Of a stretch of DNA of 43,336 bases, positions 32,348 through 36,848 are shown in pieces (within the stretch, counting starts at the first letter, position 1; every line of letters begins with the position of its first letter). This stretch comes from an uncultured Trueperaceae bacterium. GTDB taxonomy: Bacteria; Deinococcota; Deinococci; Deinococcales; Trueperaceae. The notes beneath the pieces are model-generated. The model was not told where the DNA came from. It did not search any database and worked only from the letters and a program-made list of their open reading frames with translations. The stretch is from positions 1 to 43,336 of the forward strand of contig CAJXOA010000016.1 of assembly GCA_913057685.1 (NCBI GenBank). The letters run 5' to 3'. Made by a program: the position numbers and the translations under genes.

Positions 32348-32887
32348 TCAGGCGAAGCGGGCGGCGTCGTCGGGGCCGATCAGGAGGCGCAGCTCCATCC
32401 CGCCCGGCTCCAGCGTCCCGAGCAGCTGCGCGACGCCGGCCTTGGCGAGGTGCAGGCGGGCGGGTTGGTCGGCGCGGTAGGGCGCGATCAGGAGGCCCGC
32501 CGCCTCGGCCAGCATCGGGGCGTGCCCGACGACCCCCACGCGGAGGGGGCGAGCGCCGGTCGTGACGCCCGACGCCGACGCGCTCGGGCCGACCCGGAGC
32601 ATGCGGGCGAGGACGTCGGGGAGGTCGGTTCCCTCGCCGTCCCACAGCGCCTCGAGCGGTTCGGAGCCCGCCGGCGCGAGGTGCGCGATCGCCTCCGCGG
32701 TGCGGCGGGCGCGCCGGGCGGGACTGACGTACAGGTGGTCGAACGGCGGGAGCCCCCCGGACAGGGCCTCCGCCTCGCGGACGCCCGCGTCGGTCAGGTC
32801 GCGCTCGACGTCGGCGAGGTCGGCGCGGCGGGGTTCCGCCGTGGCGTGCCGGATCAGCCACAACTCGGTCGTGGGGATGCGTTCCAT
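32348..32887 (-). CDS. SixA-like histidine phosphatase
   Basis: 179 residues. ELWLIRHATAEP holds the RH catalytic pair (R13, H14), LYVSPARRARRTAEAIA the second Arg region, and VGVVGHAPMLAEAAGLL the second catalytic His. This pattern fits the SixA branch of the histidine phosphatase superfamily, which removes phosphate from phosphohistidine proteins. ATG at 32887 has AGGAGG (32892-32897) and TATCGT (32904-32909), so a short leader is expected. The SARP regulator lies just upstream on the same strand, but a hairpin at 32910-32926 separates them. Confidence 0.88.
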   Translation of the reverse strand: MERIPTTELWLIRHATAEPRRADLADVERDLTDAGVREAEALSGGLPPFDHLYVSPARRARRTAEAIAHLAPAGSEPLEALWDGEGTDLPDVLARMLRVGPSASASGVTTGARPLRVGVVGHAPMLAEAAGLLIAPYRADQPARLHLAKAGVAQLLGTLEPGGMELRLLIGPDDAARFA

Positions 32888-32903
32888 GGCGCCTCCTGCC
32901 CGC

Positions 32904-32926
32904 ACGATACGCCCGCCGCGCGGGCG
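32904..32926 (-). promoter_or_regulatory. sixA-like gene promoter next to a 7-bp hairpin
   Basis: TATCGT (32904-32909, minus) is 16 bases before the ATG, with AGGAGG in between. Directly upstream, 32910-32926 is a perfect hairpin CGCCCGC-CGC-GCGGGCG that may end the SARP transcript or act as an operator. Confidence 0.5.
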
Positions 32927-32955
32927 GACGCCGGGCGGGCGCCACGCGCGGGGCG

Positions 32956-35658
32956 TCAGGGCAGGTGCGTGCCGGCGAGCGCCTCGAGGCGCTCGGCGGC
33001 GTCGTGCCGGTCGAACGCCTCGAGGAGGTGGATCGCCCCGCGCAGCGGGGCGGCGACGCGGGCCCGGTCGGTCGCGTCGAGGCGGGCGAGGGGACCGTCG
33101 AGCGCGGCGAGGTTGGCGAGCAGGTCGGTGGCGTCGTCGCCCCGAATCAGCAGGTCGTTGAGGGCGAGGCGCGCGCCGATTTCGGTCAGCGCGTCGCCGG
33201 CATCGGCGTAGGCGCGGACCGCGTCCGCGAGCGACGTGCGGGTCGCGGTGAGCGCCTCGTCGTAACCGGCGGTCGCGACCCACGAGATGTTCTGCAGCGA
33301 GGCGGCGTTCATCCACGCCGGGCCGGCGCGTTCGCCGGCGTCCAGGACCTCGCGGAAGGTCGCGGCGGCGGCGTCCCAGTCGCCGAGGATCACCAGCAGG
33401 GTGTTGAGGTTGATCAGGGTCCACGCCAAGCGGGCGGGGTCGTCGAGCGCGCGGCGGAGGGGGAGGGCGGCGGCGTAGAAGCGGCGCGCCTCGGCGCGGC
33501 GGCCGACGTTGAACGCCAGCGACCCGGCGGCGTCGAGGGCGTCGGCGCGGGCGGCGTCGGGGAGGTCGTCGCCGTGCGCGTCCAGGAGTGGACGGAGCCG
33601 CCCGAGCGCCGCACCGGCGTGCCCGAGCGACGCCATCACCCGCCAGGTGCGGGCGAGGAGGGGGAGGGCGTACGCGGGGTCGCGGGCGACGAGGTGGTCG
33701 AGGGCGGCGTCGACGTTCTCGAGTTCCGGTTGCAGGTCGGCGAGTGCCGCGTCGCCCTCGCGGCCGAACGTCCGTTCGCGCGTCGCGTCGAGGAGGTCGG
33801 CGTAGTGGCACGCCATCGCGCCCCGCGCCCGCTCGCGCAGCGCCTCGGGGGCGTCGGGCCCGGCCACGAGCGCCAGGCCGGGGGCGAGGGCGTAGCGGGG
33901 GGTGCCGTCGCGGAGCGGCGGTTCGGGGCTCACGACGTGGCGGGCGGCGAGCGCCTCGAGGCGGGCCTCGAGGGCGGCGTCGTCGGGGGGTGGGGCGTCG
34001 TGGGGTGGGGGGTCCTGCGCGACGGCGGCGACCGCCCGCAGCGCGGGGACGGGGGCGGGCCCGTCGAGGACGGTCCAGGCGTCGACCAGCGCGCGCTCGT
34101 CCGCGTCGAGCGTCGCGAGGAGCGGCGCGTACGTCTCCGCCAGGGAGCGGTGCCGGGGGGCGAGGTCGGCGGGACCGTCCCGCAGGGGTTCGGCGGCGTG
34201 CTCGAGGGTCCCGAGGAAGGCGGCGGGGCCGCGCCGCGCGAGGGTCCGGCCGGCGAGGAGGGCGGCGACGGGGTGGCCGTGCAGGCGGCGGGCGGCGGCC
34301 AGCAGGCTGCGGGCGTTGCCGGCGTCGACGGTGACGGGGTTGCCGTGCGCCTGCGCTGCGTGCCGCATCAGCGTGACGGTCGGGTCGGCCTCCGCCGCGG
34401 CGGGGTCGTGCGCGTCGACGTCGGGGAGGGGGAGGTGGGGGACGCGGATGGCGCGCTCGCGCAGCAGGCCGAACGGGGCGCGGGTCGCGACGAGGCCGGT
34501 GAGGCCCGGCTCGCCCGCCAGGAGCGCCCCGACCGAAGCGGCCCGCGCGACGTCCGGGGGGAGGTCGTCGATCGCCAGCTGCAGCGCCAACCCGCGGACG
34601 CGGGCGGCGATGCGGTGGAGGGCGCGGCCCCCCACCGCCCCGTCGCCGGGCGTGGCGGGGACGCCGGCGGCGTCGAGGGCGGCGTCGATGCGGTGGGCGA
34701 GCTCGCCGGCGTCGCGCACGCCGCCCGCGTCGACGACGACGCGCAGCGCGGCGGCGGGGGGGTCGGTCCGCCGGAGGGCTTCGCGGAGGAGGCGCGAGGT
34801 GCCGATGCCGGGGGGCCCGACGAGGGTGACGAGGTCGACGTCGGGGGCGGCGAGGGCCGCTTCGACGCGCGCGAGCAGGTCGTGGCGGCCGACGAACGGG
34901 GTCGCTTCGAAGGGGACGGGGGCGTGCGCGTCGGGTGCGCCGTCGCGGAGCTGGGCGGCGAGGGCGTCGAGCGCGGGGCTGGGGGCGGCGTCGAGGTGCG
35001 CGCGGACGGCGTCGCGGCAGCGTTGGACCTGGCGGAGGGCGGCGTCGCGCCGCCCGAGCGCCGCGAGGGTGCGCACGAGGCGCAGGTGGGCGTCCTCGTC
35101 CCAGGGGACGTGCTGCGTCGCGAGGTGGAGGAGGGTGACGGCGTCGTCGCGGCGGTCGTCGTCGGCGGCGGCGTCGGCGGCGAGGACGAAGGCGTCGCGG
35201 ACCTCCTCGGCGAGCGCCTCGCGGGTCGCTTCGACCCAGGCGTCGAAGGCGGGGGCGTCCTTGACGTGGAAGCCGTCGAGGAACGGTCCGCCGAGCAGGT
35301 CGGCGCCGATCGGGTCGCCGGCGTGCGCGCCGGTGCGGGCCCAGGCGCGGAAGCGGTCGAGGTCGAGGGCGACGTGGGCGTGGGGGTCGAGCTGGACGGT
35401 GCGGCGGTCGGTGATCAGGCGGTCGCCGACGGCCCCGCGGAGGTCGGTGAGGGCGAGGCGGAGGTGGTTGCGGGCCTTCCGCTCGTCGCGGTCGCCCCAC
35501 AGCAGGTGCAGGAGGTGGTCGCGGGGGTGGGGGCGCGGCTCGGTGGCGAGGAGCAGCAGCAGGGCGGTGGTCTTGCGGTAGCGGAATCGCGCCGGCGTCC
35601 CGCCGACGTGGACGGCGGGCACCCCCATCAGGGACAGACGCAACGGGGACGCGCTCAC
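32956..35658 (-). CDS. SARP/AfsR-type regulator: winged helix, BTAD, ATPase-like and helical-repeat domains
   Basis: 900 residues. Residues 5-100 are an OmpR-like winged helix (RYRKTTALLLLLATEPRPHP, RNHLRLALTDLRGAVGD). Residues 130-235 are the BTAD domain (FLDGFHVKDAPAFDAWVEAT, HLRLVRTLAALGRRDAALRQ). FVGRHDLLARVEAAL starts an ATPase-like domain whose P-loop reads GPPGIGTS (281-288): the essential Lys is Thr287. Residues from about 570 are alpha-helical repeats resembling TPRs. SARP proteins activate transcription at direct repeats. GTG 35658 is chosen because TACGTT lies six bases upstream and the domain starts right after it; a start at 35679 would run across the box. Confidence 0.9.
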   Translation of the reverse strand: MSASPLRLSLMGVPAVHVGGTPARFRYRKTTALLLLLATEPRPHPRDHLLHLLWGDRDERKARNHLRLALTDLRGAVGDRLITDRRTVQLDPHAHVALDLDRFRAWARTGAHAGDPIGADLLGGPFLDGFHVKDAPAFDAWVEATREALAEEVRDAFVLAADAAADDDRRDDAVTLLHLATQHVPWDEDAHLRLVRTLAALGRRDAALRQVQRCRDAVRAHLDAAPSPALDALAAQLRDGAPDAHAPVPFEATPFVGRHDLLARVEAALAAPDVDLVTLVGPPGIGTSRLLREALRRTDPPAAALRVVVDAGGVRDAGELAHRIDAALDAAGVPATPGDGAVGGRALHRIAARVRGLALQLAIDDLPPDVARAASVGALLAGEPGLTGLVATRAPFGLLRERAIRVPHLPLPDVDAHDPAAAEADPTVTLMRHAAQAHGNPVTVDAGNARSLLAAARRLHGHPVAALLAGRTLARRGPAAFLGTLEHAAEPLRDGPADLAPRHRSLAETYAPLLATLDADERALVDAWTVLDGPAPVPALRAVAAVAQDPPPHDAPPPDDAALEARLEALAARHVVSPEPPLRDGTPRYALAPGLALVAGPDAPEALRERARGAMACHYADLLDATRERTFGREGDAALADLQPELENVDAALDHLVARDPAYALPLLARTWRVMASLGHAGAALGRLRPLLDAHGDDLPDAARADALDAAGSLAFNVGRRAEARRFYAAALPLRRALDDPARLAWTLINLNTLLVILGDWDAAAATFREVLDAGERAGPAWMNAASLQNISWVATAGYDEALTATRTSLADAVRAYADAGDALTEIGARLALNDLLIRGDDATDLLANLAALDGPLARLDATDRARVAAPLRGAIHLLEAFDRHDAAERLEALAGTHLP

Positions 35659-35664
35659 CCCCGT

Positions 35665-35709
35665 AACGTAGCGTGTCAAAACCGTGTCGAACGTTATGTC
35701 AGCGTTATC
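35665..35709 (-). promoter_or_regulatory. SARP gene promoter overlapped by tandem direct repeats
   Basis: TACGTT (35665-35670, minus) is the -10 box, six bases before GTG 35658. Above it, TGACA/CGACA repeats occur on the minus strand at 35674-35678, 35685-35689 and 35697-35701, spaced 11 and 12 bp, and TAACG repeats at 35692-35696 and 35703-35707 (11 bp). One-turn spaced repeats near the -10 are the known layout of SARP binding sites. Confidence 0.5.
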
Positions 35710-35721
35710 TGGGAGTGGGGG

Positions 35722-36363
35722 TCAGGCCCCCTCGCCCAGCAGCTGCGCGTGCCCCCGCTCCAGCTTCGTGCGGTCCGACGGCGTCCAACCGTAGGCGGTC
35801 GCCAGCGCCTCCGCCGCGCCCTCCAGCGCCGTGCCGGCGTCGGCGGGGGCGGCCTCCGCCCACTCGAGCTCCACCTCGCGCCACGCCGCCCGCCGGTCCT
35901 GCCCCGGTTTGCGCGCCGTGACGTCGTCGAACGACAACGTCGCCACCCGCACGCCGCCGTGCAGGACCGGGAGGTCGCGGCGCTCCACGTCCAGCGACAT
36001 CACGACGTGCAGCGCCGCGGGGTCGGTCACGGTCCCGACCGCGTCCGCCAGCTCCGTCGGCCACCCCTGCGGCGCGTCGGCGTCCAGGACGACCTCGAGC
36101 TCCCCGCGGACGTGCTCGCCGTCCCGCACCGTCCCGAGCGTCTTCAGGGTCGCGACGACCCGCCCCTCCCCGGTCCGCCGCCGCAGGGCGAAGCCGACGC
36201 GCTGCAGCGACAGCCGCGGGTCGTCGTAGTAGCGGTCCTTGTGTACCGCCCGCGCGACCTCGCCGACCGTCAGCCCCCACGGCGCCAGGTGCGCGGCGAG
36301 GTCGGCGGGCTCCGGCGGGTCCCCGTCCTCGCGCAGGTACTTGCGTTCGCGTTCGGTCTTCAC
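35722..36363 (-). CDS. CYTH-domain protein
   Basis: 213 residues. The N-terminus VKTERERKYL carries the CYTH signature ExExK (E4, E6, K8). Later charged strands fit the tunnel fold: RVGFALRRRTGEGRVVATLK, RGELEVVLDAD and WREVELEWAEA. The family includes class IV adenylate cyclases, thiamine triphosphatases and inorganic polyphosphatases, so the substrate is probably a triphosphate or polyphosphate. GTG at 36363 overlaps the stop of the zincin-like gene (GTGA), so the pair is coupled. Confidence 0.88.
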   Translation of the reverse strand: MKTERERKYLREDGDPPEPADLAAHLAPWGLTVGEVARAVHKDRYYDDPRLSLQRVGFALRRRTGEGRVVATLKTLGTVRDGEHVRGELEVVLDADAPQGWPTELADAVGTVTDPAALHVVMSLDVERRDLPVLHGGVRVATLSFDDVTARKPGQDRRAAWREVELEWAEAAPADAGTALEGAAEALATAYGWTPSDRTKLERGHAQLLGEGA

Positions 36364-36848
36364 GACCCCCGCCCCAGGAGCCGCCGCCACCACGGCCGCC
36401 CTGCAGAGTCCCCGGCAGCGTCGGTGTCGGGACGGTCGAGGTCGGTGGGGGCGGCGTCGGCCGGTTCGCTGCGCGCATCGAACTGCTGGGCGTCGAGCAG
36501 GTCCTGCTCGATCAGGCGCCCGTCGCCCGCCAACGACTCGACGTGGTGCTGGAGTTCGTGGGTCAACGTCTCCCAGATCTCCTCCTCCCAGTCGAAGTCC
36601 GGATCGTTCTCGGCGATCGCGCGGAAGCTGCCCCAGTACAGCGCCACGTGGCGGCCCAACCCCGCGTCGCCGCCCAGGAAGGCGTCGGGGCCCGGGTCCA
36701 GGTACTCCCCCATGCGCCAGACGTCGTCGTAGCCCTCCTCCAGGACCTCCTGCTCGAGGGCGTGCACCCCCTGCAGGTCCCGCAGGAACCCCTCGGGGAT
36801 CTCGGCGGTCATGCGCTGCACGGTCGTGCGGAACTGGCGGTACGTCAC
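36360..36848 (-). CDS. Zincin-like metallopeptidase family protein (HExxH)
   Basis: 162 residues. ETLTHELQHHVESLAG holds the HExxH motif (H97, E98, H101), followed by an acidic helix (IEQDLLDAQQ) that may give the third ligand, as in the pfam06262 zincin-like family. No signal peptide. The C-terminal 40 residues are Asp/Ala-rich and end in a basic patch (WWRRLLGRGS). GTG at 36848 has TAGGCT six bases upstream. Peptidase activity is not proven for the family. Coupled to the CYTH gene. Confidence 0.78.
   Translation of the reverse strand: MTYRQFRTTVQRMTAEIPEGFLRDLQGVHALEQEVLEEGYDDVWRMGEYLDPGPDAFLGGDAGLGRHVALYWGSFRAIAENDPDFDWEEEIWETLTHELQHHVESLAGDGRLIEQDLLDAQQFDARSEPADAAPTDLDRPDTDAAGDSAGRPWWRRLLGRGS

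Follow-up and report, generated by a model that had tools for sequence, protein, structure and literature searches.

On the minus strand of the window (43,336 nucleotides, the whole stretch of DNA that was analysed), a zincin-like gene, a CYTH-domain gene, a BTAD regulator gene and a sixA-like gene follow one another in this order, and a cytochrome oxidase cluster converges on them from the opposite side. The window genome has a size of 2.29 Mb. It probably belongs to the Trueperaceae (Deinococcota), as judged from a neighbouring gene whose closest named relatives come from Trueperaceae MAGs. The features of the regulator locus are collected in Table 1. A preliminary description had taken the regulator for a SARP protein, and this assignment is supported by its BTAD domain and by profile matches to EmbR and AfsR. 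The BTAD domain matched PF03704 above the cut-off (E 4.1e-13). A profile built from the N-terminal region of the regulator and 11 relatives matched EmbR (2.9e-16, positions 5-250) and AfsR (best value 5.3e-8, positions 9-240) across the winged helix and the BTAD domain, so that an OmpR-type winged helix was detected at the N-terminus by profile, whereas Pfam Trans_reg_C alone remained below its cut-off (17.2 bits vs 26.2). TPR_12 exceeded its cut-off (31.6 vs 30.1), and AAA_16 gave a weak match below it (E 6.2e-4, 20.7 vs 32.6). Residues 1-260, folded from the single sequence, gave a low-confidence model (pLDDT 45.7) that added nothing.

Table 1. Coordinates of the BTAD regulator gene, its neighbours and the elements of its promoter region in the window
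Feature	Position	Strand	Remarks
SARP/AfsR-like regulator, 900 aa (winged helix, BTAD, weak AAA, TPR; GTG start)	32956..35658	-	domain and profile searches
CYTH-domain gene	35722..36393	-	upstream of regulator, same strand
sixA-like histidine phosphatase ORF	32348..32953	-	downstream of regulator; start not fixed; partial PF00300 match, E 5.9e-9
Half-site 1, ATAACG (heptamer ATAACGC)	35703..35708	-	sequence reading, shuffles and genome pattern search
Half-site 2, ATAACG	35692..35697	-	starts 11 bp past half-site 1
Half-site 3, GACACG	35683..35688	-	starts 9 bp past half-site 2
Half-site 4, GACACG	35672..35677	-	starts 11 bp past half-site 3
Putative -10 box TACGTT (TANNNT)	35665..35670	-	6 bp above GTG; predicted leaderless start

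The stop codon of the CYTH gene and the GTG of the regulator are separated by 63 bp, which hold both ATAACG copies, both GACACG copies and TACGTT. In this interval the preliminary description had noted GACA in steps of 12 and 11 bp, TAACG repeated at a step of 11 bp and TACGTT below the repeats. All of these were recovered on the minus strand, GACA at 35700-35697, 35688-35685 and 35677-35674 and TAACG at 35707-35703 and 35696-35692. The fuller reading of the array is two six-letter pairs, ATAACG and GACACG, each at exactly 11 bp; the GACA pair at 12 bp has four letters in common and no more. Viewed on the plus strand, the array consists of four CGT half-sites (35672, 35683, 35692 and 35703; steps of 11, 9 and 11 bp). 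The array thus contains the two or more direct repeats at 11 bp that characterise SARP operators. The RNA fold of the CYTH-regulator intergenic stretch was unremarkable (z -1.59). A G/C-rich hairpin lacking a T run spans the CYTH stop codon (35709-35739), directly above the repeats.

The probability that such repeats arise by chance was estimated with 20,000 dinucleotide-preserving shuffles of a 66-bp stretch, scored for at least two six-letter pairs. The frequency was 0.0002 at lag 11, 0.0012 at lags 10-12 and 0.038 when every lag between 5 and 29 was allowed. Since the any-lag frequency is so much higher than that at lag 11, the significance of the repeats is strong only when the 11-bp lag is fixed beforehand. 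These frequencies bear on the explanation that a chance cluster of repeats overlies an ordinary constitutive leaderless promoter. The any-lag value would allow this, and TACGTT at 6 bp above the GTG may suffice as a leaderless promoter in the phylum, as far as such promoters are described in PMC12340547. Given the frequency at the lag stated in advance, and given that other BTAD genes are preceded by the same hexamer core with identical lag and direction, a chance cluster is unlikely.

Leaderless promoters with a TANNNT element a few base pairs above the start codon are known from Deinococcus-Thermus, according to the available text of PMC12340547, and TACGTT lies so near the GTG that it fits this type. 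Transcription of the regulator gene probably starts leaderless at its GTG (35658). A promoter scan of the regulator upstream region detected no sigma-70-like promoter with a -35, and a standard sigma-70 promoter for the gene was rejected on this basis. The preliminary description had further likened the repeats to the SARP layout, in which direct repeats about 11 bp apart stand next to the -10. The 11-bp direct repeats of this layout are present, but their placement deviates: TACGTT is separated by 21 bp from the ATAACG pair and by 1 bp from the GACACG pair, whereas under the SARP rule, as given in PMC4393881, 8 bp lie between the 3' repeat and the -10, and the 5' repeat covers the -35. The -10 of the window is one turn too distant for this textbook rule, and the 21-bp spacing makes the site non-canonical by it. 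The distances from pair to TANNNT were also long and variable before other repeat-bearing BTAD genes, where chance matches to TANNNT are possible.

No orthologue of the regulator was found in relatives, where the best listed matches had 36-45% identity; nor did a search of the protein against the contigs of related genomes retrieve one. The DNA at 35600-35760 had no match in the five relatives searched. In one relative (G003, L052), the CYTH gene is directly followed by a sixA-like match, with the oxidase-cluster region further along and the regulator not between them. In another (G002, L053), in which only the CYTH and oxidase-cluster regions matched, the latter lies within ~1 kb after the CYTH gene, which leaves no room for the regulator. 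It follows that the regulator gene was either gained in the window lineage or lost in the relatives. The closest CYTH match (77%) is in G004 (C129, end of L051), and its contig stops 2 bp past the match.

The preliminary description had also suggested that the motif could reveal a regulon, with the sixA-like and polysaccharide genes as places to look. Within the window, the TAACG pair was present at the regulator promoter and nowhere else, and no regulon was found at the sixA-like gene or other window genes. Across the genome there are two copies of the ATAACG pair, one exact and one with a single mismatch. The one-mismatch pair, which has a canonical -10, is found on another contig (C7:52067-52098, corresponding to L071:1501-1531) before a gene for a secreted 223-aa protein, ~5.4 kb from a BTAD paralogue. 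A genome-wide search for the whole four-half-site array returned only the window copy at 0 mismatches, and two other places within 3 mismatches. As the array matches only itself at 0 mismatches, a local regulon could not be drawn. A protein of G004 with weak similarity to the secreted 223-aa protein has an exact box (L339); the box-bearing secreted proteins of G000 and G004 are weakly related (E 0.002).

To place the array in the context of its family, upstream regions of at most 120 bp were collected from BTAD genes. The first set was a sample from the matches listed, with unclear starts and contig-end matches left out; 134 regions were usable, and 128 remained after removal of six with a shared 20-mer. 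They were compared with 111 other upstream regions (from crude gene calls; G+C 66% vs 60% for the BTAD set) and with 603 random segments. A repeat of at least six letters at lag 11 was found in 21.1% of the BTAD regions, 5.4% of the control regions and 4.5% of the random segments, and one of at least seven letters in 14.1%, 0.9% and 1.7%, respectively. A local score of at least 12 was reached at lag 11 in 23 of the 128 BTAD regions, whereas the other 28 lags (6 to 34) averaged 2.4 such regions and none exceeded 6. In a second set, mostly from unused genomes (75 regions, 11 of them dropped for overlap), the enrichment was weaker: there were 6 of 64 regions at lag 11, while other lags had 1.4 on average and 4 at most; three of the six had ATAAC or TAACG pairs resembling those of the window. 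The 11-bp direct repeats, which had been proposed as a SARP-type feature, are thus enriched in both sets and family-wide at BTAD gene promoters. That a clear repeat precedes only 23 of 128 BTAD genes counts against a self-operator. The repeats come in many different sequences between genes, and half-sites that differ from gene to gene fit self-recognition better than one common regulator. Striking examples above other BTAD starts (L010, L029, L090, L126 and L143) include three CTAAC, two GTTACAC, three GCTTAGCGC, two AGCGTTTCAT and three GCGTCCCC.

Both sets together comprised 192 BTAD regions, in which the half-sites of the window were followed on the gene strand. TAACG pairs at lag 11 occurred in 5 of 192 regions, the window included; the other 20 lags (6 to 26) yielded no such pair in any region. 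TAAC pairs at lag 11 occurred in 7 of 192 regions against a mean of 0.15, and TAAC ranked first among the 256 four-mers. Since the motif was suggested by the window itself, the independent counts are four (TAACG) and six (TAAC). GACA at lag 11 was found in the window alone among the 192 regions, and GACA, considered as a possible core, was rejected as a shared motif; the conserved half-site is ATAACG. In two orthologous BTAD genes (L343 and L345), both half-sites are kept, one letter apart, and the 5-bp spacer varies, with flanks that are also similar. The recognition-helix region is much alike across the aligned BTAD proteins.

The pattern ATAACG-N5-ATAACG, which the window carries and by which we define a class of ATAACGC-box promoters in this analysis, was matched exactly at 74 sites, spread over 30 of 111 Deinococcota genomes; the reversed-pattern control had 19. 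Most often, the loci examined have ATAACGC heptamers separated by 4 bp. TANNNT was located 9 or 10 bp below the pair in 23 of 29 loci (one per genome from the 74 sites, the window not counted). Judged by this layout, the ATAACG pair with its TANNNT is a SARP- or Pho-box-like promoter. The window departs from the class in its spacing of 21 bp (10 + 11) vs the canonical 9-10 bp, which is a further point against a self-operator. Below the box, genes for DegT/DnrJ/EryC1-type aminotransferases were found in 8 of the 29 loci (one identified by a scan, the other seven by a similar N-terminus), and the other genes encode proteins judged by eye to be secreted or lipoprotein-like, or proteins with no Pfam family. 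In the aminotransferase loci (L317, L320, L321, L323, L325, L326, L328 and L332), ATAACGC-N4-ATAACG stands at 1501-1517 with TANNNT ~10 bp below.

A BTAD gene on the same strand adjoins at least 10 of the 74 exact sites: three of these sites precede its start (window included), and seven are at its 3' end, where the box lies within -30 to 185 bp of the BTAD end. Most of these seven look orthologous, and since most contacts are of this kind, they are not independent. In L314, L318, L319, L324 and L331, a BTAD gene of ~1,090-1,140 aa ends at the box (1501-1517) or less than 200 bp from it, and a gene for a secreted or lipoprotein-like protein follows the box in the same orientation. The recurrence of the layout before many related regulator genes and before some genes for surface polysaccharides and surface proteins suggests that the box is probably a real binding site. 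The site in the window is very probably functional, and a BTAD protein is its likely binder.

The other 64 exact sites, which have no known BTAD contact, serve other genes, so that a shared regulator could bind all of them, the window included. The ATAACG pair might accordingly be the box of a global regulator, be it another BTAD protein or a response regulator, either of the receiver-BTAD type (as in COG3947) or of the OmpR/PhoB type, and the SARP gene would be one target in a regulon of surface-polysaccharide and secreted-protein genes. The exact sites stand mainly before non-BTAD genes, their distance to TANNNT is fixed, and in the window genome the site with one mismatch and canonical spacing precedes a gene for a secreted protein. 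The Pho box of PhoB/PhoP response regulators has the same geometry, with 11-bp direct repeats ~10 bp above the -10, but its half-site differs from that of the window, and the ten scanned proteins downstream of the ATAACG box included no phosphate-uptake family. A receiver-SARP protein of Deinococcus deserti with a Truepera homologue is described in PMC3564903, as far as its available text goes. However, the 11-bp repeats of BTAD genes are too varied in sequence for one regulator, ATAACG sites show an excess of BTAD genes, and the box was absent from all 27 genomes of genus g20 that were searched. A global regulator is possible, at a probability clearly below even.

CcaR, a SARP of Streptomyces, is said to bind its own promoter, like the autoregulation proposed for the window. 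The AfsR regulator of Streptomyces shares its profile match across winged helix and BTAD with the window regulator. According to the available text of PMC10936776 and PMC10972967, AfsR has a SARP-NOD-TPR architecture, which the window regulator may share, and the afs box in the afsS promoter has two 11-bp direct repeats and a poor -35, like the window. However, the afs box spans -40 to -19 with repeats CGTT(T/C)ATCGNN, whereas the window has its ATAACG pair at about -50 to -34, a second pair below and another half-site. The PimR operator, as described in PMC5930380, likewise has heptamers, 4-bp spacers and a placement relative to the promoter that is unusual for a SARP; it differs in having three CGGCAAG heptamers and another regulator gene as its target. 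In the literature consulted, SARP binding sites are described for Streptomyces. Searches of open-access papers on other phyla yielded one Deinococcus study of a SARP-type protein and, in the text available, no binding site.

Autoregulation by the SARP-type product of the regulator gene is the best single reading of these data, though an unproven one. We give about even chances to the reading in which the promoter of the BTAD regulator gene is overlaid by a SARP-type operator array that binds the gene's own product or a close BTAD paralogue. The core of the array would be ATAACGC-N4-ATAACG, with one copy per helical turn; with the GTG as the transcription start, it would cover about -50 to -34, and the second, divergent pair (GACACG) would cover -30 to -14. 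The protein, most likely the gene's own product and otherwise a closely related BTAD paralogue, would occupy the array as a dimer or tetramer, with its subunits side by side, and would control the leaderless TACGTT promoter, which has no good -35. We infer the binder, the autoregulation and its sign: activation would follow the habit of the family, and a site over the spacer and the -10 would also permit repression. Negative autoregulation, which differs from the best reading in sign only, would have the protein over -30 to -14 block RNA polymerase. The GACACG pair ends 1 bp from the -10, as this would require, but the SARPs characterised in the available text of PMC10936776 and PMC4393881 are activators, and we regard repression as unlikely.

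A wider proposal, to which we assign slightly less than even probability, is that the BTAD regulators of Deinococcota use a SARP-type code, in which many would have an 11-bp direct-repeat operator of their own above the gene. The ATAACGC box would represent one specificity class, with a further role in driving sigma-adapted promoters of genes for surface polysaccharides and secreted proteins throughout the phylum, and the window gene would be self-regulated between the CYTH and sixA-like genes, with its doubled box one helical turn up. If this is true, the ATAACGC box makes a large and little-studied set of regulators, in a phylum for which laboratory strains exist, testable and ties these regulators to surface genes.
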